This document shows positions 2,498 through 47,074 of a stretch of DNA of 64,000 bases, piece by piece. The translations under genes and the position numbers were made by a program. The number at the start of each line of letters is the position of its first letter. Position 1 is the first letter of the stretch. The notes beneath the pieces were generated by a model. That model was not told where the DNA came from. It ran no database searches and worked only from the letters and a program-made list of their open reading frames with translations. Source of the stretch: Cytophagaceae bacterium (lineage in GTDB: Bacteria > Bacteroidota > Bacteroidia > Cytophagales > Cytophagaceae); assembly GCA_025455005.1 (NCBI GenBank), contig JALONH010000002.1, positions 124,001-188,000 on the forward strand. The letters are read 5' to 3'.

Positions 2498-3745
2498 TTA
2501 ATCTATTTTACGAAGTACAATAGAGGCATTATGTCCACCGAATCCAAATGTATTGCTTATTGCAATGTTAATTGTACGAGATTGTGCCTTATTCAAGGTT
2601 AAATTTAATCTCGTATCAAATTGTTCATCAGGAGTTTCGTGATTAATCGTAGGAGGCACGATCTGATTTTTTATAGCTAATACAGATGCAATAGCCTCTA
2701 TAGCACCGGCAGCACCTAATAAGTGTCCGGTCATAGATTTGGTAGAACTGATATTTAGTTGGAAAGCATGGTCGCCAAATACCTCTTGAATAGCTTTTAC
2801 TTCTGCTATATCCCCAAGTGGTGTTGAGGTTCCATGGACATTGATATAATCAACTTCTGAAGGTTGAATACCAGCGTCACTGATGGCATTTAATAGTACG
2901 TTACGAGCGCCAAGTCCTTCCGGATGAGGAGCTGTTAAGTGATAAGCGTCAGCAGACAATCCACCACCTATAACTTCACAATAGATTTTAGCACCGCGAG
3001 CTTTAGCATGTTCATATTCCTCTAAAACTAAAGCGCCTGCACCTTCACCCATTACAAAACCATCTCTGTTTTTGTCGAAGGGACGAGATGCGGTAGCAGG
3101 GGAATCATTGCGTTCAGATAATGCTTTACAAGCATTAAATCCACCAATTCCGGATTCAACGACTGCAGCTTCAGAACCGCCTGCAATAATTATATCTGCT
3201 TTATTTAATCGAATGTAATTAAACGCGTCAATAATAGCATTAGAAGAGGAAGCACAGGCCGATACAGTAGAGAAATTGGGTCCTCTAAAGCCGTTACGAA
3301 TAGAAATATAACCGGCACTGATGTCAATAATCATTTTGGGAATGAAGAAAGGATTGAAACGTGGTGTTCCTTCTCCTTTGGCAAATCCACCAACTTCTTC
3401 TTCAAATGTTTTGAGACCACCAATGCCGGCTCCCCAAATCACACCAATGCGATCTGGATTTAATTCATTGGTTATACCTGCGTCTTTTATCGCTTCTTCT
3501 GAAACTACAACAGCATATTGAGTGAAAGGATCCATCTTTCTGGATTCTTTACGCTCAATAAAATCTTCTACATTAAAACCTTTGACTTCACAAGCAAATT
3601 TAGTCTTGTGTTTTTCGGGATTAAACTTAGTTATAATGGCAGCACCACTGACACCTTTTACAAGAGAATCCCAATATGCCGGAACATTATTACCAATAGG
3701 AGTAAGGGCTCCAAGCCCCGTAACTACAACTCTTTTTAAATTCAT
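2498..3745 (-). CDS. fabF: Beta-ketoacyl-ACP synthase II
   Basis: Condensing enzyme of type II fatty-acid synthesis: it extends acyl-ACP with malonyl-ACP. The catalytic cysteine is C164 in STVSACASSS. The two histidines lie in NVHGTSTPLGD (about 304) and TGHLLGAAGA (about 340). The C-terminal NTFGFGGHNAS loop is also intact. At 415 aa it is full length. It lies 39 bp downstream of acpP, whose product carries its substrates, and 6 bp before rnc, so the three are almost certainly co-transcribed. Confidence 0.98.
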   Translation of the reverse strand: MNLKRVVVTGLGALTPIGNNVPAYWDSLVKGVSGAAIITKFNPEKHKTKFACEVKGFNVEDFIERKESRKMDPFTQYAVVVSEEAIKDAGITNELNPDRIGVIWGAGIGGLKTFEEEVGGFAKGEGTPRFNPFFIPKMIIDISAGYISIRNGFRGPNFSTVSACASSSNAIIDAFNYIRLNKADIIIAGGSEAAVVESGIGGFNACKALSERNDSPATASRPFDKNRDGFVMGEGAGALVLEEYEHAKARGAKIYCEVIGGGLSADAYHLTAPHPEGLGARNVLLNAISDAGIQPSEVDYINVHGTSTPLGDIAEVKAIQEVFGDHAFQLNISSTKSMTGHLLGAAGAIEAIASVLAIKNQIVPPTINHETPDEQFDTRLNLTLNKAQSRTINIAISNTFGFGGHNASIVLRKID

Positions 3746-3784
3746 AAATGAATTTTTCCCGAATAAATCTTTGGAAAGTGAAAA

Positions 3785-4021
3785 TTACTTTACGTGTTGC
3801 TCTAAATAAGAGATTGCTTGACCAACAGTGGTGATGTTTTCTGCTTGTTCGTCAGGAATAGAAATATTGAATTCTTTTTCAAATTCCATGATTAACTCTA
3901 CAGTATCCAAAGAATCTGCACCAAGGTCGTTGGTGAAACTTGCTTCAGCAGTAACTTCTGATTCTTCAACACCTAATTTCTCAACAATGATGCTTTTTAC
4001 TTTTTGTGCGATTTCTGACAT
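3785..4021 (-). CDS. acpP: Acyl carrier protein
   Basis: Carries growing acyl chains on phosphopantetheine. The attachment serine is S37 in [11 protein letters not shown]. The 78-residue acidic protein has the usual four-helix pattern. The start is set at ATG 4021 ([10 protein letters not shown]); an in-frame ATG at 4054 would add 11 basic residues not seen in ACPs. It is the first gene of acpP-fabF-rnc and is divergent from the IPExxxVDY-pyk pair, with 187 bp between the starts. Confidence 0.97.
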
Positions 4022-4208
4022 TTTTTTACGTTGTTTAGTAAAACTCGGCGACAAAGGAATGAATTTTACATTTTAATGTCAACAAATTTGAATGATTCTT
4101 TTTCCCCATTCTCCTTAAAATCCCCTAATTTGTTTAAATTCACAACAAATTATTAAAATAAATAAGTTCCAGTACTCGGTCAAAACGTCCTTCTATACAA
4201 TTTTAACC

Positions 4209-4640
4209 ATGAAATCCACCCGTTTAATCATTGATTTTGAATATGATTTCCATTTAATCGGCGTGATTTCGTCTGCTAAAGAATATAAATTAGCCTGGTG
4301 GATAAATAAATTACTTCAGGTACAATTAGTTAAGATAGAGGATATTTTTTTAGAATTCACTAAAGAAGCTAACATGTTACATAGCTGCTATTTATATGAA
4401 TCTCCTTATAGTCAATTGAGATTGATTAAAAATAAATCCCATGAATTTACTAATATTGTCCGTCCGTTTTTATTGCCGGAGTATAAAGATTATGACTACT
4501 TCGTGCATATTTGCGGGGAAGGCAATATATTTGACCCTTCAGAAATATTAGAACGATTGTCCGAATGTCCATTTGTTCAATATTCTAAAATAATTCAAGT
4601 CACGGATATAAAAACCAAAGACAATCTTATATTTAATTAA
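4209..4640 (+). CDS. IPExxxVDY family protein
   Basis: A 143-residue protein of unknown function. It carries FLLPEYKDYDYFVHI near residues 87-101, a variant of the IPExxxVDYF signature that names this Bacteroidota family. No signal peptide or transmembrane segment is visible. It stops 7 bp before pyk and is divergent from acpP-fabF-rnc; to my knowledge this arrangement recurs in the phylum. Physical coupling to pyruvate kinase suggests a shared promoter. Whether it affects pyruvate kinase itself is unknown. Confidence 0.85.
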   Translation: MKSTRLIIDFEYDFHLIGVISSAKEYKLAWWINKLLQVQLVKIEDIFLEFTKEANMLHSCYLYESPYSQLRLIKNKSHEFTNIVRPFLLPEYKDYDYFVHICGEGNIFDPSEILERLSECPFVQYSKIIQVTDIKTKDNLIFN

Positions 4641-4647
4641 TACTAAA

Positions 4648-11433: not shown

Positions 11434-13005
11434 ATGAGTCATATTGTTGATATAGCCTTACTTCCTGAAGAAGCTTTTGATGATTATTGTATTCGTAAAG
11501 CGATTCAATTTAAAATTGCAAATCGAACCACTTTTTATTATAAGATTAAAAAAAGATCCATTGATGCTAGAGGTAGGCAGGTTCTTTATCGTTTACAAGT
11601 AGAGATTTTTGACCAAGAAGATACCATTACTTCTACAATAGATTTTTCACCGGATCAATATCAATGGGTAAAAGATGCACCTAAAGTAATTATTATTGGT
11701 GCAGGACCAGCAGGTATGTTTGCTGCGTTAAAACTGATAGAATTAGGATTGTGTCCGATCATTCTAGAGAGAGGGAAAGATGTTCGGAGTAGAAGACGCG
11801 ATTTAGCGGCCATTAATAAAGATCATATCGTTAATCCGGAATCAAATTATTGTTTTGGAGAAGGGGGGGCGGGTACTTATTCAGATGGTAAACTCTATAC
11901 GCGTTCAAAAAAAAGAGGAGATATAAAAAAGATTTTAGAGGTTTTAGTATTACATGGTGCTACACCTGAAATTCTTATAGATGCACATCCACATATAGGG
12001 ACAAATAAATTACCACAAGTAGTAACAAATTTAAGAGAACGAATTTTAGCTCATGGAGGACAGATACATTTCGAGTCAAAAGTAAATGAGTTTATTATAG
12101 TCCAAAATAGATGTAAAGGAGTTGTTCTGACGAATGGTAGTCGAGTAGAGGCGGAGGCTGTAGTATTGGCAACAGGTCATTCTGCCAGAGATATATTTGA
12201 GTTGTTAGATAGGCAAAATGTAAAAATTCAGGCAAAGCCTTTCGCTTTAGGTGTTCGAATAGAACATCCCCAAACTATGATTGATGCTTGCCAATACCAT
12301 AGAAAGGAAAGAGGTATATATTTGCCGGCTGCATCTTATTCGTTGGTAACGCAAACTATATTAAGTGGTAAGGAGCGTGGTGTATTTTCATTCTGTATGT
12401 GTCCCGGAGGTTTTATCGTTCCCGCAGCTACAGCTCCGGGTGAAATTGTTGTAAATGGGATGTCACCCAGTCGAAGGGATTCTAAATTTGCTAATTCCGG
12501 AATGGTTGTAGCGGTTGAACTGGAAGATTTAAAAGCATACCATACATTTGGGGAGCTCTCCGCTTTACGTTTTCAACAGGCGGTTGAGCAAAAAACATGG
12601 GAAGCAGGGGGTAAAACTCAGGTTGCTCCGGCGCAACGCGTAGGAGATTTTTTGGCCAAAAAAAGATCATCAAGCTTGCCCAATACATCTTATCAACCGG
12701 GATTAGCTTCAATTGAATTAGAGGATTTTTTACCTGATTTTATTGTAAATCGATTACGACAAGGATTAACTGTTTTTTCTAAAAAGATTCAAGGATATGG
12801 TAGTAACGAAGGTATACTCGTTGGGGTAGAGAGTAGGACATCTTCCCCTGTTTTGATACCTCGTAATTCGGAGTCACTAGAGCATATTGAGATCAATGGT
12901 TTTTATCCCTGTGGAGAGGGTGCCGGTTATGCAGGAGGTATAATGTCGGCAGCTATGGATGGAGAGAGAGTTGCCGACAGTATCGCCGCTAGAATTGGAA
13001 AATGA
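11434..13005 (+). CDS. NAD(P)/FAD-dependent oxidoreductase of the COG2509 type
   Basis: Uncharacterised flavoprotein. The Rossmann FAD motif VIIIGAGPAGMFAALKLIELG is at about residues 85-105 (behind an N-terminal ferredoxin-like domain), then FGEGGAGTYSDGKLYTR, VLATGHSARDIF, and the C-terminal FAD contact YPCGEGAGYAGGI. This is the architecture of COG2509 FAD-dependent dehydrogenases. The start is ATG 11434 (MSHIVDIALLPEEAF); the open frame reaches a TTG at 11401, which overlaps the candidate -7 element. Substrate unknown. Confidence 0.9.
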   Translation: MSHIVDIALLPEEAFDDYCIRKAIQFKIANRTTFYYKIKKRSIDARGRQVLYRLQVEIFDQEDTITSTIDFSPDQYQWVKDAPKVIIIGAGPAGMFAALKLIELGLCPIILERGKDVRSRRRDLAAINKDHIVNPESNYCFGEGGAGTYSDGKLYTRSKKRGDIKKILEVLVLHGATPEILIDAHPHIGTNKLPQVVTNLRERILAHGGQIHFESKVNEFIIVQNRCKGVVLTNGSRVEAEAVVLATGHSARDIFELLDRQNVKIQAKPFALGVRIEHPQTMIDACQYHRKERGIYLPAASYSLVTQTILSGKERGVFSFCMCPGGFIVPAATAPGEIVVNGMSPSRRDSKFANSGMVVAVELEDLKAYHTFGELSALRFQQAVEQKTWEAGGKTQVAPAQRVGDFLAKKRSSSLPNTSYQPGLASIELEDFLPDFIVNRLRQGLTVFSKKIQGYGSNEGILVGVESRTSSPVLIPRNSESLEHIEINGFYPCGEGAGYAGGIMSAAMDGERVADSIAARIGK

Positions 13006-13056
13006 TGGAATGTTTTATTTATATATTATGTTGATTTAAAAATAAAATCTAATAAT

Positions 13057-13422
13057 ATGAAAGTAGTATTAATAGGAGCAACAAATAATCCGGATCGTTA
13101 TGCATATGAATGTACCTTGTCTTTAATCCAACACGGTCATGAAGTGATTTTAAAAGGAATTAAAACAGGAGAAGTAGCCGGTATCCCCATTCAAAGGGAT
13201 AAAACAGTACCGAAGGATGTTCATACTATTACCCTATACATAGGGCCTCAAGTTCAAGAGGAATGGTTAGATTTTATAGAACAAGTCCAACCCAAACGGG
13301 TTATTTTTAATCCCGGTACAGAAAATGATGTTGCGTTTGAACGATTAAAAACAGCCGGTATTCAGTATGAACAAGCCTGTACTTTAGTGTTGCTTTCCAC
13401 CCGTCAATTTGAGGTGGAATAG
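13057..13422 (+). CDS. CoA-binding domain protein
   Basis: A 121-residue single-domain protein with a Rossmann-like CoA_binding_2 fold. The N-terminus MKVVLIGATNNPDRYAYE is followed by PKDVHTITLYIGP, KRVIFNPGTEN and a short C-terminal helix with a Cys. Members bind CoA or a nucleotide; no activity is assigned. It lies 51 bp after the FAD oxidoreductase and is followed by a terminator at 13475-13514. Confidence 0.9.
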   Translation: MKVVLIGATNNPDRYAYECTLSLIQHGHEVILKGIKTGEVAGIPIQRDKTVPKDVHTITLYIGPQVQEEWLDFIEQVQPKRVIFNPGTENDVAFERLKTAGIQYEQACTLVLLSTRQFEVE

Positions 13423-13462
13423 GGGCAGTGAGAGTTTGTTTAAGTATTTGATTTACAAATAA

Positions 13463-15505
<2,043 letters not shown>

Positions 15506-17705: not shown

Positions 17706-18908
17706 TTAGATTAACTTATATTTCTCCTTTAATAACATCACTCGTATAAATGCTTCGTTTATTCTTTGTTCAGTAATCGCTTTAGACTTATATAAGTTTA
17801 GAAGGGTTTCGTGCAGTTGTTTGCCAGACATTCGGTCACTGATATTAACATTGTTTCCAAAAACTAGAACATCTACACCGGCATTGATTGCCATTTTTAT
17901 AGATTCAGTAAACCCATAAGTTTGTGAAATAGCATGCATTTGCATGTCATCGGAAAAGACTACTCCTTTAAATCCTAAACTATCTCTTAAAAGGTGGGTT
18001 GTTATTTTTTTTGATAAGGTAGCCGGAATGCATTGGTCGTCCAGTATACAATTCGTAACATGGCAAGATAGAACTGCATCTAAAAGATTTTTTTGAATTA
18101 AATAGGAATAAGGGGTTAACTCTTTTTTAGTCCAGGTATTTGTTACATCAGCTATGCCTTTATGAGTGTCATTAGTGGAGCTGCCATGTCCGGGGAAGTG
18201 TTTTAAGGTAGTAATAATATTCATTTTCTGATGACCACTTACAAAAGCTTCAGCGAAATAGGAGACAGTATCCGGATTTGCGCTATAACTTCTTTGTACT
18301 TTGGCTATAATAGGATTATTGGGGTTGACCGCAATATCTACACAAGGAGCAAAATTGACGTTTATGCCTAAAGTGTGTAATTGTTGGGCCATCTGAATTG
18401 ATAAGTTCAGCATAGTATCCGGACGTCCTGATTTGCCAACTTCAAAAGCTGATGGAAATCGAATAAATCCATATTTTTCTTTTAAACGGTGTACTTTCCC
18501 CCCTTCTTCATCTATGGAAATGAAAAGTTTAAGAGTGCTGAATTTTTGACAAGAATCAATCAGTCCTTTTAACGTTAAGAATGGAGAAGTGGAAGTCTTA
18601 GAAATATTTTTTTCAAATAAAATGATTCCTCCAATCTTTCCGGATTGTATATCTGAAATTAAACTGTCTTTATATTGAAGACTGGTTCGGTCATTAATTC
18701 CAATCATAATTAATTGACCTATTTTTTGTTCAATAGTATACTTTTGTAACCATTCGCTAATTTTTTTTTGTTCCAGCTCTTCCTTAGTAAGTTGACGGGG
18801 TAACAACGTGCTACTGTCTTTTGAGACTGCAGAAGTACGTAGGGTGGTGCCCGGGTTTTTACAGGTAATACAGAATAGAAGTGTAAAAAGAAGTATGTAA
18901 TAGTACAT
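17706..18908 (-). CDS. GH3 beta-N-acetylhexosaminidase-like lipoprotein (NagZ family)
   Basis: Predicted glycoside hydrolase family 3 enzyme acting on N-acetylglucosaminides such as peptidoglycan fragments. KHFPGHGSSTNDTHKG is the NagZ-type loop carrying the Asp-His catalytic dyad. FVSIDEEGGKVHRL-like and VVFSDDMQMHAI (nucleophile Asp) segments are also present. The N-terminus is a signal sequence ending in a lipobox-like LFCITC (C16), so it is probably membrane-anchored on the periplasmic side, unlike cytoplasmic NagZ of E. coli. Only the N-terminal barrel is present (400 aa). The 84-aa membrane protein gene ends 4 bp before its start. Confidence 0.9.
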   Translation of the reverse strand: MYYYILLFTLLFCITCKNPGTTLRTSAVSKDSSTLLPRQLTKEELEQKKISEWLQKYTIEQKIGQLIMIGINDRTSLQYKDSLISDIQSGKIGGIILFEKNISKTSTSPFLTLKGLIDSCQKFSTLKLFISIDEEGGKVHRLKEKYGFIRFPSAFEVGKSGRPDTMLNLSIQMAQQLHTLGINVNFAPCVDIAVNPNNPIIAKVQRSYSANPDTVSYFAEAFVSGHQKMNIITTLKHFPGHGSSTNDTHKGIADVTNTWTKKELTPYSYLIQKNLLDAVLSCHVTNCILDDQCIPATLSKKITTHLLRDSLGFKGVVFSDDMQMHAISQTYGFTESIKMAINAGVDVLVFGNNVNISDRMSGKQLHETLLNLYKSKAITEQRINEAFIRVMLLKEKYKLI

Positions 18909-18912
18909 CAGT

Positions 18913-19167
18913 TTAATGTGTTTTGTTTTTGTAAATTCGAAATAAGCTATATATCGCCACTATTGTCCAAATTACATTGACAAATGCAGAAGGTAAAGCA
19001 TTGTTATAAATTGTATGAAGAATTAAACAAAGAGCACCCAATAAATTTAACCATTGATAATACCCATTTGTACTGTCCACTTTGTTCGTAGAGTTTAAAA
19101 AATAAGCATAGAGTACCAAAATGGCTCCAATCCAACCTATGCTTTCAATAATTAATACCTCACTCAT
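18913..19167 (-). CDS. Small membrane protein, CBU_0592-like
   Basis: An 84-residue protein with three hydrophobic helices (about 7-24, 38-55, 60-76). The pattern IIESIGWIGAILVLYAYFL...NLLGALCLILHTIYNNALPS matches the small CBU_0592-type family of bacterial membrane proteins, of unknown function. Its stop is 4 bp upstream of the GH3 lipoprotein start, so the two probably form an operon. Confidence 0.8.
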   Translation of the reverse strand: MSEVLIIESIGWIGAILVLYAYFLNSTNKVDSTNGYYQWLNLLGALCLILHTIYNNALPSAFVNVIWTIVAIYSLFRIYKNKTH

Positions 19168-19205
19168 ACTTCGAATATACTATTTCAAAGTAAGTAATGC
19201 TATAA

Positions 19206-19562
19206 TTAAAAACTAAGTATGAATTGAAATTTTGAAGGTTTGCCTTCTTGGTTGACTCCTGGACTCCATAATGGCATTTTTAATAGAATATATTTCATGG
19301 CAGTTTGTATTGAAATAGGAATTTGATCGCTTAAAATGGTTACGTCGATAACTTGACCGATTTCATTAATAGTAAATTCTATGTACCATTCTTCCGATTT
19401 TTTATCCAATATGATATTGAAATCACTTTTTAAGTGTTGTATTAAGTATTGTTGGAAAGCAGATGTCCCGCCGGGGAATTCCGGATATTGAGTTTTATCT
19501 ACTTGTGCAAATGTAACGAATTGCATACAGTAGATACTAATGGTTAGAATCAGTTGTCTCAT
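19206..19562 (-). CDS. Secreted stand-alone TonB C-terminal-like domain protein
   Basis: A 118-residue protein with a signal peptide (MRQLILTISIYCMQFVTFAQ), then YPEFPGGTSAFQQYLIQHL, EFTINEIGQVIDVTIL and MPLWSPGVNQEGKPSKFQF. These are the successive elements of the TonB C-terminal domain (FPGG..A...YL / F.I...G.V..V / MP.W.PG...GKP). It has no N-terminal membrane anchor or proline-rich linker, so it cannot be a normal energy-transducing TonB. In Bacteroidota such single domains are common in envelope proteins. It lies 39 bp upstream of the small membrane protein on the same strand. Confidence 0.75.
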   Translation of the reverse strand: MRQLILTISIYCMQFVTFAQVDKTQYPEFPGGTSAFQQYLIQHLKSDFNIILDKKSEEWYIEFTINEIGQVIDVTILSDQIPISIQTAMKYILLKMPLWSPGVNQEGKPSKFQFILSF

Positions 19563-19730
19563 AGATACTCCTTTCTAGGGACTACAGAAGTATCGTTTTA
19601 AAAAAAGAGACAATGAATAGTAACACAATATAACGGTACCTATGTTAACCCTTTTTTTTATTATAAACGGAAATGCTAAACATCAAGATGATATTATAGT
19701 AAATTTTTTTACATTAAATGGAATTTGTTT

Positions 19731-19748
19731 AGATTTAAACTTAAATCT
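19731..19748. promoter_or_regulatory. Perfect palindrome in front of an OM-protein gene
   Basis: AGATTTAA-AC-TTAAATCT is a perfect inverted repeat with a 2-bp centre, 16 bp before the ATG at 19765. It could be a dimeric repressor site or a small hairpin over the translation start. Its AT-richness means chance is possible. Confidence 0.35.
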
Positions 19749-19764
19749 TACACTATAATTTAGG

Positions 19765-32916: not shown

Positions 32917-35595
32917 ATGAAATCTTATTTAAAGTTAAGCGGTCTAGAGCCATTAGTAATAACACCAGAAACTAATTTTGTTAACATCGGCGAGCGTACC
33001 AATGTTACCGGTTCTGCAAAATTTCTACGATTAATTAAAGAAAATAAATTTGAAGAGGCATTAGAAGTTGCATTAGAACAAGTCCGGGGAGGTGCACAAG
33101 TCATCGATGTGAACATGGACGAAGGGATGATTGACAGCGAAGCGGCAATGGTTAAGTTTCTTAATCTCATGGCGTCAGAACCGGAGATTTCTCGCGTTCC
33201 GGTTATGATTGATTCTTCAAAATGGGATGTTATAGAGGCCGGTTTGAAATGTATACAAGGTAAGGGAATCGTAAATTCAATAAGTTTAAAATCGGGTGAA
33301 GCTGAATTTATATATCAAGCAAAGAAAATAAAACGATATGGAGCCGCCACGGTTGTAATGGCCTTTGATGAAAAAGGTCAAGCAGATACATACGAGCGCA
33401 GAATCCAAATTTGTGAACGAGCCTATCGAATATTAGTCGATAAAGTACAGTTTCAACCTGAAGATATTATTTTTGATCCGAATATATTTCCGGTAGGAAC
33501 AGGAATTGAAGAACATAAAAACTATGCCATCGATTTCTTTAAAGCTACCCGTTGGATTCGGACACATTTACCGGGCGCACATGTTAGTGGTGGCGTAAGT
33601 AATGTTTCGTTTTCATTTAGAGGGAATAATTCTGTTCGGGAAGCCATGCATTCCGCCTTTTTATATCATGCGATTAAAGAAGGCATGGATATGGGAATTG
33701 TGAATCCGAGCATGTTAGAAGTATATGAAAACATTCCGAAAGATTTATTAGAACGCGTAGAAGACGTATTGTTAAACAGGAGAGAGGATGCCACCGAACG
33801 TTTATTAGAATATGCGGAACAAGTTAAAAGTAGTGGTAAGGTTCAAGTAAAAGATTTAGAATGGAGAAATACGACTGTCGAAGAGCGCTTAACCTATGCT
33901 CTAGTAAAAGGTGAAATTGAATTTATTGATCAAGACACGGAAGAAGCTCGATTGAAATATGGTCATCCATTGAAAGTAATAGAAGGCCCATTAATGGCTG
34001 GGATGAATGTCGTCGGCGACCTATTTGGAGAAGGTAAAATGTTTTTACCACAAGTAGTAAAAAGCGCTCGAGTGATGAAAAAATCAGTAGCGTATTTATT
34101 TCCGTATCTAGAAGCAGAAAAATCAAAAGGTGGGAGTAGTACTGCCGGAAAAATATTGCTAGCTACTGTAAAAGGTGATGTACACGATATTGGTAAAAAT
34201 ATTGTTGGGGTTGTATTAGCTTGTAACAACTATGAAATTATAGATCTAGGTGTTATGGTACCGGCTGATAAGATATTAGCGGCTGCTCGAGAACATCAGG
34301 TTGATATTATTGGTTTATCCGGTTTAATTACGCCTTCTTTAGATGAAATGGTGCATGTTGCAAAAGAGATGCAACGAGAAGGGTTTACTATTCCACTCTT
34401 GATAGGAGGTGCTACGACCTCTAGAATTCATACAGCCGTTAAAATCGATCCTTGTTATAGTGGTGCGGTAGTACATGTTTTAGATGCTTCCAAAAGTGTT
34501 CCGGTAGCAAGTACCTTATTAAGTACCACCTTAAAGGATACAACAAAAGAGAAGTATAAACAAGAGTATGTTAAAATGAGGGAAGAACATGCTGCGAAAC
34601 AAGAGGATAAACATTATATCTCCTACACCGAAGCTTGTTTGAATAAAAAGAAGATAGATTGGGCTTCTTATACTCCTCCGATTCCAAATAAACTCGGTGT
34701 TCATACGTGTACAAATGTGCCGGTAGCTACACTTCGTCAGTATATTGATTGGACTCCTTTCTTTCAAACATGGATGTTGAAAGGAAAGTATCCTAAGATT
34801 TTGAAAGATCCTGTCATAGGTGTAGAAGCACAGAAATTATTGAAAGATGCTCAAGAAATGTTAGATACTATTGAAGCAGAGCATTGGTTACAAGCAAATG
34901 GAGTATATGGTTTGTTTCCGGCAAATACAGTCAGCGACGATGCTATTGAAGTGTATGATTTGAATGCATACGAGGTTAAGGAAAAATTATTCCATTTAAG
35001 ACAACAAGGTAAAAAAGGTACAACAATTCCTAATCTTTCTTTAGCAGATTTTATCGCCCCTAAAGCATCCGGGAAAACCGATTATATTGGAGCTTTTGCT
35101 GTAACTGCAGGTTTAGGGATAGAAAAACATTTAGAACGTTTTGCTAAAGAACAGGATGATTATAATAGCATTTTGTTAAAGGCTCTCGCAGACAGATTAG
35201 CGGAAGCGTTTGCTGAATATCTTCATGAACAGATACGGAAAGAATTTTGGGGTTATGCTCCCAGTGAGAATTTATCGAATGAGTCATTAATCGACGAAGA
35301 ATATAGAGGTATTCGTCCTGCTCCTGGATATCCTGCTTGTCCAGATCACACTGAAAAAACAACTCTATTTAGATTATTGGATGTTGAGCATTCAACCGGT
35401 ATACGATTAACAGAAAGTTTAGCTATGTATCCGGCAGCTTCTGTATCCGGCTTTTATCTAGCTCATCCTGATGCCATTTATTTTGGTTTAGGAAAAATTT
35501 CAAAGGATCAAGTAGAGGCTTATTCCCAACACAAAGGTCAAGATATTTCTTTCGTAGAAAAGTGGCTGGCCCCTAATTTAAACTACGATATATAA
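32917..35595 (+). CDS. metH: Methionine synthase, folate/cobalamin/activation subunit
   Basis: An 892-residue protein carrying the remaining MetH modules in order: pterin-binding barrel ([13 protein letters not shown] at about 20-32, then [10 protein letters not shown]), cobalamin cap and B12-binding domain ([14 protein letters not shown], with the Co-ligating His, then [13 protein letters not shown]), and the AdoMet-dependent reactivation domain ([17 protein letters not shown] near 805). It transfers the methyl of methyltetrahydrofolate via B12 to homocysteine held by the preceding gene's product. A terminator follows at 35621-35653. No cobalamin or SAM riboswitch was recognised upstream of the pair. 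Confidence 0.97.
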
Positions 35596-35620
35596 TAAAA
35601 TTCAATATATTGAATAATGT

Positions 35621-35653
35621 AAAGCAGTAATTAAAATACTGCTTTTTCTTTTT
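35621..35653 (+). terminator. Intrinsic terminator after metH
   Basis: The stem AAAGCAGTA / TACTGCTTT has a 7-nt loop and a T-rich tail. A separate 14-bp palindrome (TTCAATATATTGAA, 35601-35614) lies just before it. Confidence 0.85.
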
Positions 35654-36019
35654 AAATTAATTTATGGGATAAGTTTAAAGGGAATTAGGGCTTTGCTTTA
35701 TTAGAAAAGTACAATTATTTATATTTTATCTAGTTTTAACTTTTAGTACATCTGTTAAATTTTTTTTAAATAAAATTAAGTTGTTGATTGACTGTATATT
35801 GATTATTTGAAAGGTATTTGATGTATAATAATTTTAAGAAATAGTGGTATTAAAATCATAAAATATACCTGATGATCTTTTATAAAATATGCGAAATTGT
35901 TTTAAAATCCTTAATTTTTTCCTAGATTAGTATCCTAATCCTTCTACAGTTAATGAAGATTCCCAATCAACATTAATTGATTTTTGTAATTAAATAAACT
36001 ATTTGCTTGACTAAAGTTT
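35654..36019. other. AT-rich non-coding stretch
   Basis: No open frame of plausible composition, tRNA-like fold or known riboswitch motif is visible. The region is strikingly AT-rich even for this genome. It ends in a strong terminator, so it may contain a small RNA or a decayed gene, but I cannot identify either. Confidence 0.5.
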
Positions 36020-36055
36020 GAAACTGCCGAAGTGTTTCGGCAGTTTCTTTTTTTT
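36020..36055 (+). terminator. Strong intrinsic terminator with no obvious upstream gene
   Basis: A 12-bp perfect stem GAAACTGCCGAA / TTCGGCAGTTTC with loop GTGT is followed by eight T. It lies 367 bp after the metH terminator and 197 bp before the HMG-CoA lyase ATG. The 36056-36251 interval beyond it shows no clear promoter match or ORF. Confidence 0.88.
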
Positions 36056-36251
36056 ATAGATAACATATTTATTCACACTCAATACATCATTTTTAATATT
36101 AGTCAAATACAAATTGTGAATATCTGTATGTCATCGCGTCAAGCAGTTGTTAGTTATAGTTCGAATTTTTATTCTCTCTATTATTTTAAAAGAATTGATT
36201 CCATTCAACTTAAATTACGTATAGTAAATAGTTATCATATTAATTCATTGA

Positions 36252-37130
36252 ATGATTTCCTATACACCACAAACAGCTTTTACTTGGGTAGAATGTCCCA
36301 GAGATGCTTTTCAAGGTATTCACTATCCTATTCCAACACCCGTAAAACTACATTATTATTCCTGTTTAGTAAATGTGGGTTTCGATATTATCGATATAGG
36401 ATCATTTGTATCACCTAAAGCTGTTCCACAGATGAGTGATACGGCTATTCTCTTGGATTCATTGGATTTGAGTAGTAGTTCATCTAAATTATTAATCATT
36501 GCAGCAAATGAACGAGGTGTTTTAAATGCTCTACGCTATCCTCAAATTCAACAAATAGGATATCCTTTATCGTTATCTCCTACTTTCCAGAAGAACAATA
36601 CCCATTCAACTCTTGAAGAAAGTGTTATTTTAATAGAAAAATGTTTGGTTCATACCAAAGGGGCAAAAGAATTGATTATATATGTTTCTATGGCTTTTGG
36701 TAATCCATATGGAGAGGCTTATTCAATAGATCTTTTGCTACAGACGATAGAAAAGTTGAAACAAATTGGAATTCATACCATTTCCCTAGCGGATACTATT
36801 GGAATGGCAACGCCGGAATTTTTAGCAAATGTATTGAAACAATTACCTTCTAATAGTCTAGGTATTACTATTGGTCTTCACTTACATAGTACGTATACCT
36901 CCTCTAAAGAAAAGTTTAAGATGATATTAGATTACGGTATACAACGAATTGATACCGCTTTTCTTGGAATGGGAGGGTGTCCCTTTGCTCAAGATACCTT
37001 AGTGGGGAATATGCCAACAGAAATTCTATTCGACATTTTAGAAGAAAAGTCAGTACCTTTGTCTTTGAATACCAAAAAGTATCAGGAAGCGCTCTCTATA
37101 GTGTCCGATATAAAGTCGAAATATCATTAA
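36252..37130 (+). CDS. mvaB: Hydroxymethylglutaryl-CoA lyase
   Basis: Cleaves HMG-CoA to acetoacetate and acetyl-CoA, the last step of leucine breakdown. ECPRDAFQGIHYPIPTPVK replaces the usual VGPRDGLQNE...IPT opening. IDIGSFVSPKAVPQMSDT, ISLADTIGMATPE (metal site), HLHSTYTSSKEK and DTAFLGMGGCPFA (catalytic Cys loop) are present. 292 aa. The N-terminal 'RDGLQ' is changed to RDAFQ, a variation near the catalytic Arg-Asp pair, but R and D are kept. The next gene starts 3 bp after. Confidence 0.9.
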   Translation: MISYTPQTAFTWVECPRDAFQGIHYPIPTPVKLHYYSCLVNVGFDIIDIGSFVSPKAVPQMSDTAILLDSLDLSSSSSKLLIIAANERGVLNALRYPQIQQIGYPLSLSPTFQKNNTHSTLEESVILIEKCLVHTKGAKELIIYVSMAFGNPYGEAYSIDLLLQTIEKLKQIGIHTISLADTIGMATPEFLANVLKQLPSNSLGITIGLHLHSTYTSSKEKFKMILDYGIQRIDTAFLGMGGCPFAQDTLVGNMPTEILFDILEEKSVPLSLNTKKYQEALSIVSDIKSKYH

Positions 37131-37133
37131 TCA

Positions 37134-37877
37134 ATGAAAAAAAATAAAAAGGTTGTAGATATATTTATCCCCTGCTTCGTAGACCAAGTGTACCCGGAGA
37201 CGGGATTTTCCATGGTTAAAGTTTTAGAGCATTTAGGATGTGAGGTTCATTATAATCCGGATCAAACATGTTGCGGTCAACCGGCTTTCAATGCCGGTTA
37301 TTTTGATGAAGCCCGAGAAGTAGCCATTAAGTTCCTGAAAGATTTCCCATCTAGTGATCGATATGTTGTATCCCCATCCGCTTCATGTGTAGGAATGGTT
37401 TGTAATAGTTACTCCAGATTATTTGACCATACTTCCTATGTACTAGAATATAAAAGAATTCAGCGCAATACATTTGAGTTAACCGATTTTATTACCAATG
37501 TATTGGGAATACAGCACATTCCGGGAGCTCATTTTAATGCAAAGGTTACGTATCATGATTCTTGTAGTGCTTTACGGGAATGTAAGATTAAAGAAGGGCC
37601 AAGAAAATTACTGGAAAGTGTAAAGGGTATAGAAATACTTGAATTAAAGGACAATGAAACGTGCTGTGGTTTTGGTGGTACTTTTGCTGTTAAATTTGAA
37701 CCAATTTCTGTCGGCATGGCGGAACAAAAAGTAACCAATGCGATTGAAACAGGTGCGGATATTATTACTTCCACTGATGTTTCTTGTTTGATGCATTTGG
37801 ATGGATATATTAAAAAGAACCAACTACCTATTCGCACCCTGCATATAGCTGATATTTTAGCCTCCGGTTTAAAATAA
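37134..37877 (+). CDS. CCG-domain (Fe-S)-binding protein, LutA/GlcF-like
   Basis: A 247-residue protein with two cysteine-rich CCG domains: FIPCFVDQVYPETG ... DQTCCGQPAFNAG (about 12-55) and HDSCSALRECKI ... ETCCGFGGTFAVKF (about 143-190). This is the LutA / heterodisulfide-reductase subunit-like architecture that binds an Fe-S or related cluster in lactate and glycolate oxidases. lutB and lutC partners are not adjacent. It is coupled to mvaB by 3 bp, and its stop lies 1 bp from the stop of the convergent DUF4249 gene. Confidence 0.92.
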   Translation: MKKNKKVVDIFIPCFVDQVYPETGFSMVKVLEHLGCEVHYNPDQTCCGQPAFNAGYFDEAREVAIKFLKDFPSSDRYVVSPSASCVGMVCNSYSRLFDHTSYVLEYKRIQRNTFELTDFITNVLGIQHIPGAHFNAKVTYHDSCSALRECKIKEGPRKLLESVKGIEILELKDNETCCGFGGTFAVKFEPISVGMAEQKVTNAIETGADIITSTDVSCLMHLDGYIKKNQLPIRTLHIADILASGLK

Positions 37878-37878
37878 A

Positions 37879-38694
37879 TTAAGGAGTAGGGACCAGTACA
37901 ACCTCACGATCGCTAGACAAGCAGGTAAAGATACCTATTCCACCTGTTATATTTGATCTTATAGAACTTGGTTGAGCAAATGGATTTCCGTTTGCATTGT
38001 TGGCATCCTCCACTGATTTTAAAAAATAATAATGTTCAGGTGTTAGGTGAGTTAAGTTGATATTAATAAATCCGGGCTCTACAGTAGATCGAGAAGTTAC
38101 TTGAATAGTGTTACCGGTTACTAGTTCATCAGAAAATATTATATCTCCTTTTTCAATAAAATTTTCAATGTCTACAATAATTAAGTATCTATAAAAATTT
38201 TTATTAAAAATATCAACATCATTAAATCGTATTGTTGTTGTAGCTCTATTTTGATTATTAAAAACAAACCATACACTATCTAGTGTTGGTCTTTTTACTT
38301 GTTTAGTACTGGAATAAAGTTCTCGTCCTTTTGAATCTTTTACATACAATTGATAATTATTAACAAAATCATCTACAACGTGTTTGGAAGTATCTCCAAC
38401 ATAATTATAGAATTTACCGCCAAGAGTATCTGGAATGGTTTGATATTTTAATGTATCTGAAATACCATTATGGGTAATAACGACAAGAGCATTAGCCAAT
38501 AAAGTGATTTGAGGGGAGCCAAAATAATCCACAGTTTCATATAATGCTAATCTATACGGTTTTCCACTTTCTATATAACATTCCACTATGGGTTGGGCTT
38601 CATAAGGTGGAAGATTAATGGTTATATCCTTTTCTAGATCACAACTAAAAAGAGTAAGAAGCAATAATAAAATAAAACAACGTAGTGTTACCAT
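37879..38694 (-). CDS. DUF4249 family lipoprotein
   Basis: A 271-residue lipoprotein with a signal sequence and lipobox Cys18 (LTLFSC). It has INLPPYEAQPIVECYIESG and LALYETVDYFG, the N-terminal pattern of DUF4249, and a beta-rich body. In Bacteroidota these lipoproteins follow TonB-dependent receptors and may sit over them like SusD, but their substrate is unknown. The start overlaps the receptor gene's 3' end by 7 bp. Confidence 0.9.
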   Translation of the reverse strand: MVTLRCFILLLLLTLFSCDLEKDITINLPPYEAQPIVECYIESGKPYRLALYETVDYFGSPQITLLANALVVITHNGISDTLKYQTIPDTLGGKFYNYVGDTSKHVVDDFVNNYQLYVKDSKGRELYSSTKQVKRPTLDSVWFVFNNQNRATTTIRFNDVDIFNKNFYRYLIIVDIENFIEKGDIIFSDELVTGNTIQVTSRSTVEPGFININLTHLTPEHYYFLKSVEDANNANGNPFAQPSSIRSNITGGIGIFTCLSSDREVVLVPTP

Positions 38695-40991
38695 TTGAAA
38701 TTAAATGTAATGGAAGGAATAACCGGAAATAGTGAAACTTGTTTTGCTTGATAACCTATCACTTTATCATTGATATCTTTCACTTCATCAAAATAAATAA
38801 AATATGGGTTATATCGATTGTAAACATTATATATACTAAAGGTAAGGTCGGCATAGCCCCATTTGGGTTCTAGTTTCCAAATTAACGCGAGATCTAATCT
38901 GTGGTATGCCGCCATTCTATATGCATTTCGATCAGTGTATATAGATACAACAGTAGGAGATGAGCTATAGATATCTTGGAAAAAGGCCCTGGCTACGGGA
39001 AGTGAAACAGCATTTCCTGAACCATAAACCCAAGTTGCAGAACAGCTCAATCGCTTATTGATTTTATGCATAATTACTAAGCTGATATCATGTCGCCTAT
39101 CATAGCGAGCCGGGAAATACTGACCTTGATTAATTGAATCAAATCGTCGTTCTGTTTTAGATAAAGTATATCCAATCCAACCTGTCGTTTTTCCTGTCTT
39201 TTTTTCGATATACAATTCCCAACCAAAACTTCTTCCTACTCCAAATACAAATTCGTTTTCTAAATTGTTATTAACAAAAATCTCCGCTCCATCTCTGAAA
39301 TCAATTACATTATTAAATCCCTTATAGTACAATTCATTCGTTATAAATATTTTGTTTCCCGGCAATAGTAATTCATGACCGATAGATACTTGTCTAGAAC
39401 GTTGTGGTTGAACCTTAGTAGTGGATGGGTACCAAATATCGGTAGGTAAGGATGCGCCGGAATTGGATACTAAATGCAAATATTGAAACATTTGATTCAT
39501 TGATACTTTAAGACTTTGACGTCCGGAAACTTTATAACGTAAAGATACTCTTGGTTCTATTCCTGAATAAAATGTTTCATTTATAAAACCGGAGTATCGA
39601 ACACCTAATGTTGTTTTTATTTTATTACTCCATCTGTACGTATCGCTAAAATAAAGCCCGAATTCTTGACCTATTAAATTTGAACCGGAATTGAAATTCA
39701 CTTGACCATCATCAGACCCTGCTTTCAGTCTGGCCACTGTGAAAGTATGAAAGGTATATTGTAATCCAACATTTATAGTGTGTTGACTATCTACAGAGTA
39801 TTTCCAATCTTGTGCAATAGTATAGTCTCTGATTTGTGATTTTAAGTTTAATCCAAAACCGGTTATTTGATTTTCTAATTCATATTTGTATCGACTATAT
39901 ATAATACTATTGGTAACTTGAATTTTAGTTGAGATATTACTTTGAATTTGGAGCGATTGAACAAAATTTCCCCAGGTAAAATTGAAATTAAAGTCATCGT
40001 CTTTAAATTTAAATCGATCTCGTCCATAATATCCTGTATATATAAACGTGTGTTTTTTGTTTAAAGCATATTGAATATTTCCATTTAAATCCCAAAAAAA
40101 ATAGTCTGGTATAGGATTATAATCCGGATTGTCTTGTTGGGATAGATTGATCTGACGAGTAAATATATCGGCATATGTTCTTCTACCGGAGATCAACCAA
40201 CTCCCTTTTTTGTTAGCAAAAGGACCTTCTAATGTTAAACGAGATGAAATTAGCCCTATGCCTCCGCTCGCATGAAAAGTGGTATCTCCTGATCGCATAT
40301 GGACATCCACAACTGAAGATAAACGTCCACCAAAATTAGAAGGGAAATCACCTTTATAAAGATCTATACTCCGCACAGCATCAGTATTGAATACACTAAA
40401 GAAACCAAATAAATGAGATGGATTATATATTTGTGCTCCATTTAATAAAAATAGATTTTGATCAGGCCCCCCGCCTCTTACATATAATCCGGCAGAACCT
40501 TCGCCACCATTTTTAATACCGGGTTTGAGTTGTAATACTTTAAGCATATCTATTTCGCCACCTAAGCTCGGGAGTAATAAGGCTTCTTCACGTGTGATTT
40601 CAACTTTACCCATTTGAGTGGTTTCTAACTGTTGGGTATATGGGTTATCTAAAATAAGGACGGACTTCGTATTAGAGGTATCGATTTCTAAATAAAGTGT
40701 TAAGGAAAGGGTAGTCTCTATTAGAATACTTTGAACATATTTTTTATAACCGGTTGATTGTACTATAAGCGTATCTCTACCAGCAATACTTTGAAAACTA
40801 AACTGTCCATTATAATCTGTACTGGTTCCTTTGTTTTGTTTTTTTAAATATACAATGGCACCAATAATCGTTTCTTCACTGCTTTTATCTTTTACAACTC
40901 CGGAAATCGTGATAGTTTGGGCTTTTACTCCTTTAAAAAGTAGACTAAGAGATAGGAATAGTAATAGTAAAAGCCAATACTTGAGAAGCAT
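38688..40991 (-). CDS. TonB-dependent receptor with CarboxypepD_reg-like N-terminal domain
   Basis: A 767-residue outer-membrane transporter. The signal peptide ends near KGVKAQ. A carboxypeptidase-regulatory-like domain follows (ISGVVKDKSSEETIIGAIVYL, about 28-110). The plug contains LPSLGGEIDMLKVLQLKPGI and GLYVRGGGPDQNLFLLNGAQ (about 165-190). The barrel closes with SLFPVIPSITFNFKW, ending in an aromatic residue. The partner is the DUF4249 lipoprotein. It lies 2 bp below the M1 peptidase gene. Ligand unknown; there is no evidence for a polysaccharide locus. Confidence 0.94.
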   Translation of the reverse strand: MLLKYWLLLLLFLSLSLLFKGVKAQTITISGVVKDKSSEETIIGAIVYLKKQNKGTSTDYNGQFSFQSIAGRDTLIVQSTGYKKYVQSILIETTLSLTLYLEIDTSNTKSVLILDNPYTQQLETTQMGKVEITREEALLLPSLGGEIDMLKVLQLKPGIKNGGEGSAGLYVRGGGPDQNLFLLNGAQIYNPSHLFGFFSVFNTDAVRSIDLYKGDFPSNFGGRLSSVVDVHMRSGDTTFHASGGIGLISSRLTLEGPFANKKGSWLISGRRTYADIFTRQINLSQQDNPDYNPIPDYFFWDLNGNIQYALNKKHTFIYTGYYGRDRFKFKDDDFNFNFTWGNFVQSLQIQSNISTKIQVTNSIIYSRYKYELENQITGFGLNLKSQIRDYTIAQDWKYSVDSQHTINVGLQYTFHTFTVARLKAGSDDGQVNFNSGSNLIGQEFGLYFSDTYRWSNKIKTTLGVRYSGFINETFYSGIEPRVSLRYKVSGRQSLKVSMNQMFQYLHLVSNSGASLPTDIWYPSTTKVQPQRSRQVSIGHELLLPGNKIFITNELYYKGFNNVIDFRDGAEIFVNNNLENEFVFGVGRSFGWELYIEKKTGKTTGWIGYTLSKTERRFDSINQGQYFPARYDRRHDISLVIMHKINKRLSCSATWVYGSGNAVSLPVARAFFQDIYSSSPTVVSIYTDRNAYRMAAYHRLDLALIWKLEPKWGYADLTFSIYNVYNRYNPYFIYFDEVKDINDKVIGYQAKQVSLFPVIPSITFNFKW

Positions 40992-45332: not shown

Positions 45333-46430
45333 TTAGCCCTTCAATGTATACTTTTTACCCGATAATGCTTTGATAATTCCGGAAAATTCAAGTGTGAGGA
45401 GGATAGAAGATAATTTAGATAATGGAATTTGAGATTTCCAACTGATTTCATCAATATGTATAGGTTCGGATTGAAGAAGTAAATTTACAACTGTTTTTTC
45501 TTCTATAGTAAGATCACTATAGGTAGAGGCTGATAATACTGTATTATCGGAGGTTTTATCCCAATTCATGAGTTTGATTAATGACTCAATACCGGTATAG
45601 ATATGTGCTTTATGTTGTTGGATAAGGTGGTTGCATCCCTCTGAATAGATATCATTTGTTCTACCCGGTAAAGCCATAATTTCTCTATTATAGGAATTAG
45701 CAATTTCGGCGGTTATTAAGGCGCCTCCTTCTTTGGCTGCTTCTACAACAATGGTTACGTCGGTCATACCAGCGACTATTCGATTACGAGCAGGGAATCG
45801 CATGGGTTCCGGATGAATTCCAAACGTGTATTCTGAAAGTATGCCACCGTTCCCCATCATCTTTTGAGCAACAGAACGGTGGACTGCCGGATAAAGGATA
45901 TCAATACCACTGCCCATTACACCTACTGTTGGTATGGATTGTTGTACACACCGACGATGTGCAGCAATGTCAATACCGTAGGCTAAACCACTTACGATTA
46001 GGGGTTGAATACTTTGTAAATCATCGATTAATTTATCTACTGCTATTTTCCCATAATCCGTCGCTTTACGGGTGCCAACAATAGCAATAGATTTTTCCGG
46101 ATTCAACGTACTGTTTCCTCTGTAATATAAGAGGGTGGGAGCATCTGCCAGTTGTTTTAATCGGTTGGGAAAGGCGGAATCGGTGTAATGTAAAAGTTGA
46201 GTATTAGTTTGTTTGGCTTTGAGTATAATTTTCTCAGCCAGTTCTACCGTTTTTTTTTCTCGAATTCGAATGGCTGTTTGTTCCCCGATTCCGGGTATTT
46301 GAAGTAGTTTTCCCTTAGAAATCTCAAAAACGTTTTCGGCGGAACCCGCATAACTAATTAACGTTCGGGTGTTCATATGCCCTATGCCCGGGACTAATCC
46401 CAAGGCAACTTGAAATAATTTATCTTGCAT
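45333..46430 (-). CDS. dprA: DNA processing protein DprA
   Basis: Loads RecA on incoming single-stranded DNA in natural transformation. The N-terminal HhH/SAM-like region has GIGEQTAIRIREKK. The Rossmann-like core has SIAIVGTRKATDYGK, VSGLAYGIDIAAHR, VGVMGSGIDILYPAVH, PARNRIVAGMTD and ALPGRTNDIYSEGCNHLI. The C-terminal winged helix covers about 300-365. 365 aa, full length. It lies 38 bp upstream of the J-protein gene and 43 bp below merR. Confidence 0.96.
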   Translation of the reverse strand: MQDKLFQVALGLVPGIGHMNTRTLISYAGSAENVFEISKGKLLQIPGIGEQTAIRIREKKTVELAEKIILKAKQTNTQLLHYTDSAFPNRLKQLADAPTLLYYRGNSTLNPEKSIAIVGTRKATDYGKIAVDKLIDDLQSIQPLIVSGLAYGIDIAAHRRCVQQSIPTVGVMGSGIDILYPAVHRSVAQKMMGNGGILSEYTFGIHPEPMRFPARNRIVAGMTDVTIVVEAAKEGGALITAEIANSYNREIMALPGRTNDIYSEGCNHLIQQHKAHIYTGIESLIKLMNWDKTSDNTVLSASTYSDLTIEEKTVVNLLLQSEPIHIDEISWKSQIPLSKLSSILLTLEFSGIIKALSGKKYTLKG

Positions 46431-46473
46431 AGCTGGTCTGGTAAAAATGAACCTTAAAATTAATTAAAAAAGG

Positions 46474-46815
46474 TTAGCTGTCCAGTTGTTTTTTTAAATC
46501 TATTAAAAAGGACCTCACTTTATGTAAGGCGTCCAAAATATCTTCTGTGTTTTTAACTTTTTGTTTATCTTTTTTTAATAACTCTCTAGCTCCATTGATA
46601 GTATATCCCTTTTCTTTTAAAAGGCTATAAATTACTCTGAACTGTTCGATGTCATCTTTTGTGAATTGACGATTTCCCTTTTTGTTTTTTTGAGGTTGTA
46701 TCGTATCAAATTCAGATTCCCAATACCGTATAAGAGAAGGTGCCACTTGAAACATGTCAGCAACCTCACCTATACTGAAGTATTTTTTTTCGATATCTTT
46801 CTCTTTATAAGGCAA
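46474..46815 (-). CDS. MerR family transcriptional regulator
   Basis: A 113-residue DNA-binding protein. The winged-helix motif is YFSIGEVADMFQVAPSLIRY (about 12-31), then WESEFDTIQPQKNKKGNRQF and a dimerisation helix ending DLKKQLDS. No cysteines suitable for metal sensing are present, so it is not a metal sensor. This type is widespread and of unknown regulon in Bacteroidota. It is the first gene of the minus-strand run through dprA. Confidence 0.93.
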   Translation of the reverse strand: MPYKEKDIEKKYFSIGEVADMFQVAPSLIRYWESEFDTIQPQKNKKGNRQFTKDDIEQFRVIYSLLKEKGYTINGARELLKKDKQKVKNTEDILDALHKVRSFLIDLKKQLDS

Positions 46816-46842
46816 ATCCTTTGAATCAGTTCAATCTTTCCT

Positions 46843-46850
46843 CAAAAATA
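46843..46850 (-). promoter_or_regulatory. Candidate -7 element for the merR gene
   Basis: On the minus strand the sequence reads TATTTTTG, an exact TAnnTTTG, 28 bp before the merR ATG (46815). No clear -33 TTG is seen. Confidence 0.3.
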
Positions 46851-47024
46851 CATTTTATTCTAACGGTATGAATTGGTTCTGCTTCTGCTCTCTTAATATA
46901 CTTATCCACATATCTAGGGGAAAGGGTTGTGGAAGAAGGGTGGATAGGATGAAATTGCAGGGTGTGATCATTAAAGAAAACTGCTATAAATACGCATATC
47001 CATGCATAAATCCGATGAATTTTG

Positions 47025-47032
47025 TACATTTG
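47025..47032 (+). promoter_or_regulatory. Candidate -7 element for alaS
   Basis: TACATTTG matches TAnnTTTG exactly, 43 bp before the alaS ATG. The -33 side is weak. Confidence 0.35.
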
Positions 47033-47074
47033 AAGTTCGTTTGGACTATTGTTGAAAACCTAAAATTGTAGAGC

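Follow-up and report, generated by a model that had tools for sequence, protein, structure and literature searches.

A second terminator in the gap between metH and mvaB

The locus lies in a 2.94-Mb draft genome of a Cytophagaceae bacterium (G000), of which a stretch of 64,000 nucleotides (hereafter the window) was analysed. The gap separating metH from the next gene, mvaB, spans 659 nt and is the fourth largest between ORFs of at least 150 aa in the window, where the median is 17 (Table 1). The stretch is AT-rich, as the original prediction had described it, with a G+C content of 0.226 vs 0.357 for the whole window. The claim that no reading frame precedes the second terminator was also borne out: 35654-36019 contains no ORF of at least 50 aa on either strand, and the next ORF (36032-36418) starts within the terminator and overlaps mvaB. 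No metF is present at this locus (35596-36252); relatives from two other genera (g8 and g4) have metF between the RNA described below and mvaB. Further long gaps between ORFs of at least 150 aa are found at 3745-4647, 18908-19764, 1739-2500, 46430-47074 and 13002-13546, and may contain RNAs or short genes.

Table 1. Features at the metH-mvaB locus, in window coordinates.
Feature	Position	Strand	Remarks
metH (methionine synthase, C-terminal part), preceding gene	32917..35595	+	ORF of 892 aa; last 264 aa 60-68% identical in relatives
metH terminator	35621..35653	+	9-pair stem (35621-35645), 7-nt loop, T-rich tail
-33-like TTG of proposed promoter	35897..35899	+	spacer of 23 here vs 20 in 9 relatives, the weakest point
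-7-like box TAGATTAG	35923..35930	+	relatives carry TAATTTAG or TATATTTA
Proposed small RNA, ~121 nt	35935..36055	+	homologues in 10/19 family genomes; exact 5′ end inferred
Block A, UAAUCCU	35936..35942	+	complementary to target Shine-Dalgarno (SD) sequence AGGAUUA
RNA hairpin, bulged out of predicted duplex	35947..35979	+	sequence varies between genera
Block B, 18 nt	35981..35998	+	perfect complement of target leader directly upstream of SD
Block C, CUUGACUAA	36006..36014	+	complementary to 5′ end of target leader; one mismatch at UA in own genome
Intrinsic terminator of the RNA	36020..36055	+	12-pair stem and eight T; compensatory changes in relatives
mvaB, hydroxymethylglutaryl-CoA lyase family, next gene	36252..37130	+	ORF and comparison with relatives

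Both terminators of the original prediction, that of metH and the second one with no reading frame before it, are real features of the sequence. The hairpin of the second (36020-36047) has 12 perfect pairs, six of them G-C, and a 4-nt loop, followed by the eight T at 36048-36055. It is the strongest of four terminator-like sites in 33000-39000. Shuffled sequence yields 2.8 +/- 1.7 such sites at the same loose criteria, so the number of sites is in itself no proof. What places this terminator above chance is the comparison of eight genomes from three genera, in which it occupies the same place and four of the eight consensus stem pairs are altered on both sides somewhere with pairing kept.

A putative small RNA gene and its homologues

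A DNA search with 35600-36260 against 59 genomes, the own genome included, returned three strong matches besides the query itself. All three cover a 46-nt block right before the terminator at 93-96% identity, and they come from all three g8 genomes. Each of these copies lies behind metH and its terminator, and has a downstream terminator of its own that differs in sequence. Four genomes of g4 (G003, G010, G014, G017), found by reading the locus, have the same architecture downstream of metH in more diverged form. When the own, g8 and g4 sequences (hereafter the first clade) were aligned, TTTTTGTAATTA and CTTGACTAA proved invariant in all eight. Terminator-like sites are common in AT-rich sequence, and the terminator could on that account be a chance orphan in a decaying intergenic stretch without any RNA gene. 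We give this reading practically no credence, since the 46 nt are 93-96% identical across genera, against 67-68% for the last 264 aa of MetH and 45-47% for MvaB in the own vs g8 comparison, and since the stem changes are compensatory. Conservation in relatives, which the original prediction had named as a test, was found both as homologues and as a stem with compensatory changes.

Two sequence models were used to extend the search. Model R1 (the 46-nt block and terminator), run on 341 genomes of the order Cytophagales, gave ten matches, four true and six weak (E 0.003-0.01). Two of the weak ones were in g4 genomes and were not true copies of the sRNA; R1 therefore missed g4. Model R2 (promoter to terminator) was run on 39 relatives and then on 390 order genomes, and found eight true genomes with E values of 6e-23 to 2e-18. 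The only other matches at E <= 0.1 in the 390 order genomes, two weak ones in g6 (E 0.018 and 0.037), were rejected because they fall where a thioredoxin-like gene ends in its terminator. Because R2 missed two genomes considered below (G006 and G008), absence of an R2 match is not proof of absence. Altogether, 10 of the 19 family genomes, representing five genera, carry a homologue, which precedes either metF or mvaB. One exact sequence pattern also matched two contig records, from Cytophaga aurantiaca and an uncultured Cytophaga. Separately, a weak R2 match in another genus of the family (L094, G004:C1:3763204-3763327, E 0.71) looks, from its sequence, like the promoter and terminator of a seemingly unrelated small RNA; a relation to the present RNA has not been shown.

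The consensus of Bacteroidota promoters is TAnnTTTG. Ahead of the conserved part, nine of the ten homologues carry a promoter-like TTG-N20-TAnnTTNR (TTG-N20-TAATTTAG or TTG-N20-TATATTTA), and this combination of TTG and -7-like box resembles the Bacteroidota promoter type. The position of the element puts the putative start of the RNA near 35935. A longer RNA of ~226 nt, suggested by a first alignment (fold of 35830-36055, z -4.5), was rejected, as the part shared with g4 begins only at the promoter-like element; nor did the stretch before that element have any convincing match in other genera in the 59-genome search. With sequence shared between genera starting only there, the RNA appears to occupy just about the last third of the 366-nt stretch between the two terminators (about 35935-36055). 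The original prediction had offered the whole 366 nt as a small RNA gene. The idea of such a gene is upheld by conserved sequence, position, promoter-like element and terminator, albeit without transcript data, but its extent must be cut to ~121 nt.

The predicted fold starts with a C-rich 5′ end, followed by a hairpin that varies between genera, a conserved AU-rich segment and finally the terminator, with a z-score of -5.3 in the own genome (35937-36055) and -4.0 to -5.0 in the four relatives folded. This anatomy and its conservation are computed; transcription of the RNA is inferred. The RNA is non-coding, having no ORF of its own of at least 50 aa, stops in the conserved blocks and alignment gaps that are not multiples of three. 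The absence of such an ORF and the stops within conserved blocks also speak against the suggestion that the gap is the remnant of a lost gene.

Known RNA families and the genes downstream

Across the whole window, Rfam gave no match at gathering score, and a relaxed threshold gave only matches far below it. The 6S model RF00013 had no match at E <= 1 in any of the 19 family genomes, while two of the 39 relatives searched with RF01685 had a match at E <= 0.1; both fell short of the cut-off, and neither was in the own genome. Searches for phage records and for tRNA or tmRNA returned nothing above cut-offs.

The original prediction had also raised a leader attenuator for mvaB. Cis action on whichever gene comes next, mvaB in this genome and metF in relatives, as its leader or attenuator would suit an RNA that sits upstream of a biosynthetic gene and has a terminator at its end. 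The downstream gene is not constant, however: mvaB directly follows the RNA in the own genome, and metF follows it in nine relatives, so that the criterion for a cis leader or riboswitch of mvaB or metF (a terminator in the leader of a single conserved gene that lacks a separate promoter) fails. In those nine relatives metF begins 91-454 nt beyond the terminator, and in 9/9 a promoter box that matches TAnnTTTG exactly lies 26-44 nt ahead of the metF ATG; with a box of its own at that distance, the RNA is not the metF leader. Moreover, no antiterminator was obvious by inspection of the predicted structures, and no riboswitch family matched. We therefore set the attenuator aside as very improbable and return to an independent small RNA.

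Complementarity to the leader of an unlinked gene

Four genomes were searched for TAATTACAAAAA, which is the reverse complement of the invariant 12-nt core. It was hit 3, 6, 7 and 6 times, vs 3, 5, 3 and 1 times for a reversed-pattern control. The three sites in the own genome are the sRNA itself, a coding site and a gene leader at G000:C2 near 185,985. In all four genomes one hit is the leader of an orthologous gene, whose Lys/Ala-rich product of 73-96 aa starts with MAKAK. The own copy is unlinked to the RNA (ATG at about G000:C2:186002) and encodes 73 aa. The target proteins have no significant Pfam or NCBIfam match, only weak low-complexity ones, and the description histone H1-like consequently rests on composition (small, Lys/Ala-rich).

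The own leader reads AGTCAAG - TTTATTTAATTACAAAAA - AGGAGGATTAC - ATG, which runs antiparallel to the sRNA and is complementary in turn to its blocks C, B and A. A promoter-like TTTGG-N19-TAnnATTG, identified by inspection, ends about 10 nt upstream of the block C complement, so that most of the leader would be covered by the sRNA. The longest Watson-Crick run is 18 in the own genome, G012 and G007, 14 in g4 and 10, with one mismatch, in G016. When the own sRNA was compared with 2453 window segments the control runs reached a maximum of 12; a run of 10, as in G016, is also reached by 40 of 500 shuffles. Cofolding of the eight first-clade pairs predicted a duplex of three blocks, from which the hairpin of the sRNA bulges, at -42.5 to -49.0 kcal/mol. 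The energy of the own duplex is unexceptional by itself (43 of 3644 window segments are as good), and because energy does not discriminate against the window background, runs, shuffles and cross-clade tests were relied on. Dinucleotide-shuffled leaders matched the true energy in only 0-2 of 500 cases in each of the ten genomes.

Within the first clade 308 of 352 pairing cells are standard, six pairs occur in more than one type and 1 of 47 is changed on both sides, which suggests a pairing that is mostly conserved and hardly covarying. First-clade sRNAs also pair equally well with the leaders of another first-clade genus.

When the g8 leader was searched against 390 order genomes, 89 of them had a match somewhere at E <= 0.01. 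Among the loci listed, nearly full-length leader matches occurred only in the eight first-clade genomes; many of the others lay in the Lys/Ala coding part, and several in AT-rich or SD-containing pieces of leader. The best partial match (G022, E 4e-7) was the SD-bearing leader of a ferredoxin-like gene, and four further loci that were read (L141, L145, L146 and L150) were not H1-like leaders either. The ferredoxin-like gene at L137 (G022:C1:6665616-6665673), in another family of the order, has a strong SD, ACAAAAAAGGAGGAATACATAATG, that is unusual for the phylum. Two other matches, L156 (G012) and L157 (G016), hit Lys/Ala-repeat coding sequence close to a long ORF. By eye this ORF resembles DNA topoisomerase I, and in Cytophaga that enzyme may bear an H1-like tail.

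A second clade in which both partners differ

G006 (g7) and G008 (g9) have an H1-like gene with the start GGAGGATCACATGGCAACAGC, and both contain a terminator-ended RNA upstream of metF with the same promoter-like spacing (L154 and L158, respectively). The last segment of these RNAs, GCTGTTGCCAC(T/A)TGATCC, is complementary to the SD, the AUG and the first codons except for a 2-nt internal loop. Duplexes with their own leaders are predicted at -37.6 (G006) and -38.5 kcal/mol (G008), vs -16 to -26 kcal/mol for cross-clade swaps. In G006 a 12-nt 5′ block is also complementary, yet it cannot join the same simple duplex. Computed complementarity thus lasts while both partners change; judged from the sequences, pairing would have been kept by covering the SD, AUG and first codons instead. 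These two genomes are not blind tests, as they were found partly via complementarity, but their RNA-like genes nonetheless stand at the conserved place upstream of metF. Their homology with the other RNAs is based on position, promoter spacing and having the same target, and for G006 alone also on TTTTGTAATTA, which its RNA has in common with the others.

Co-occurrence was assessed with the target pattern AAAGGAGGA-N(1-9)-ATGGCAAMAGC in the 390 order genomes. The SD-bearing target was present in 11, namely all 10 genomes that have the RNA plus G002, whose examined stretches yielded none. The remaining eight family genomes lack the target pattern, and nothing resembling the RNA turned up in those stretches beside metF, metH or mvaB that were read. 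All of these genomes belong to one family and so are not independent. The complementarity, which lies where translation of an unlinked mRNA starts, is beyond chance and conserved.

Many sRNAs have several targets, and our target search was not genome-wide. The conserved RNA could accordingly have another main job, on other mRNAs or through 6S-like protein binding, with the H1-like match being secondary or a relic such as an inverted copy of the leader. That no 6S RNA was recognised in these genomes leaves a 6S-like role formally open, although the predicted fold lacks the long closing rod of 6S. We consider a different main job unlikely: the conserved blocks of the RNA are those complementary to the leader, the partners in G006 and G008 both differ and still pair, and the RNA was found in all but one of the 11 genomes that have the SD-bearing target and in no other genome searched.

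A proposed translational repressor of an H1-like protein

We consider it probable, in the absence of expression data, that 35935-36055 encodes a trans-acting sRNA with its own promoter that represses translation of the H1-like gene by pairing with its leader. The sRNA would be transcribed from its own promoter and ended by the terminator at 36020-36055. Its 5′ end (UAAUCCU) would cover the SD of the H1-like mRNA, its middle block would form the 18-nt pairing immediately before the SD, and its 3′ block would pair near the mRNA 5′ end, with the sRNA hairpin bulging out; in g7 and g9 the AUG would be covered too. Such a duplex is predicted to keep ribosomes off the message, possibly exposing it to degradation, so that the nucleoid protein would be produced only at low levels of the sRNA. 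That the duplex forms in the cell and that its outcome is repression are inferences, and so is the signal. Leader-pairing sRNAs can also activate, and pairing might open or protect the H1-like mRNA; with the SD covered, and in G006 and G008 also the AUG, we hold activation to be highly improbable.

Pending expression data, the repressor would be a new family of an already known kind of sRNA. It shares with SD-blocking trans-encoded sRNAs a putatively independent gene, an intrinsic terminator, single-stranded conserved pairing blocks and a site over the ribosome-binding site. It differs from them in that the pairing is long, is apparently dedicated to one gene and occurs in a phylum where SDs are rare. 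None of the 46 window ORFs of at least 150 aa has GGAGG within 22 nt of its first ATG. According to the available part of one report, Bacteroidia ribosomes sequester the anti-SD, and strong SDs may be regulatory elements, as in rpsU, whose strong SD is read by ribosomes lacking bS21 (PMC9976891). The H1-like gene resembles rpsU in having an exceptional strong SD as a control element in SD-blind bacteria; it differs, as far as the accessible portion of that source goes, in the gene controlled and in the proposed control by an RNA (PMC9976891). Whether SD-reading ribosomes are relevant to the H1-like gene is speculation.

The closest parallel is IhtA-hctA of Chlamydia, where an sRNA of similar size (~110-120 nt) base-pairs with a histone H1-like message at the site where translation begins, according to those parts of the two reports that were available (PMC4355289, PMC3469542). 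IhtA covers the AUG, as the G006 and G008 RNAs would, but in the portion of the source at hand it involves only 7 nt around the AUG and leaves the SD untouched (PMC4355289), whereas the first-clade RNAs would pair in three blocks with the SD and leader and not with the AUG. Further differences are the phylum and the gene neighbours, and IhtA has, in the same partly available source, been demonstrated experimentally (PMC4355289), while the present RNA is computational only. By analogy, the RNA would resemble IhtA in function and differ in the length and site of pairing, and we do not class it as IhtA. Within the phylum, Rfp18 of Flavobacterium psychrophilum is likewise an independent small RNA with likely trans targets, although it belongs to another order and the targets named in the available text are metalloproteases and an adhesin (PMC9723704). 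Bacteroides thetaiotaomicron sRNAs, as described in the accessible part of PMC7366714, are also independent with likely trans targets, again in another order. Among the matches listed from the open-licence literature, none described this RNA, and none reported an sRNA directed at an H1-like protein in bacteria other than Chlamydia.

Taken together, these comparisons allow a wider reading, which we offer as tentative and rather doubtful. A dedicated sRNA would mask a strong SD, a signal that Bacteroidota ribosomes normally do not read, and the H1-like protein, a chromatin-like switch, would be made only at low sRNA, perhaps only by SD-reading (e.g. bS21-poor) ribosomes. The system would have arisen independently of IhtA-hctA, and between genera its pairing site would have moved from leader and SD to SD, AUG and first codons of the same target gene.

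If the proposal is true, it provides a specific, testable sRNA target for Cytophaga and its close relatives, for which none was among the literature matches listed, and deletion and reporter tests would be direct because cultured relatives exist. It would also bear on the open question of what purpose the rare strong SDs of Bacteroidota serve. Lastly, IhtA would gain a second, apparently independent counterpart among sRNAs that govern a histone H1-like protein, which would suggest that such DNA-packing proteins have repeatedly come under RNA control in bacteria.
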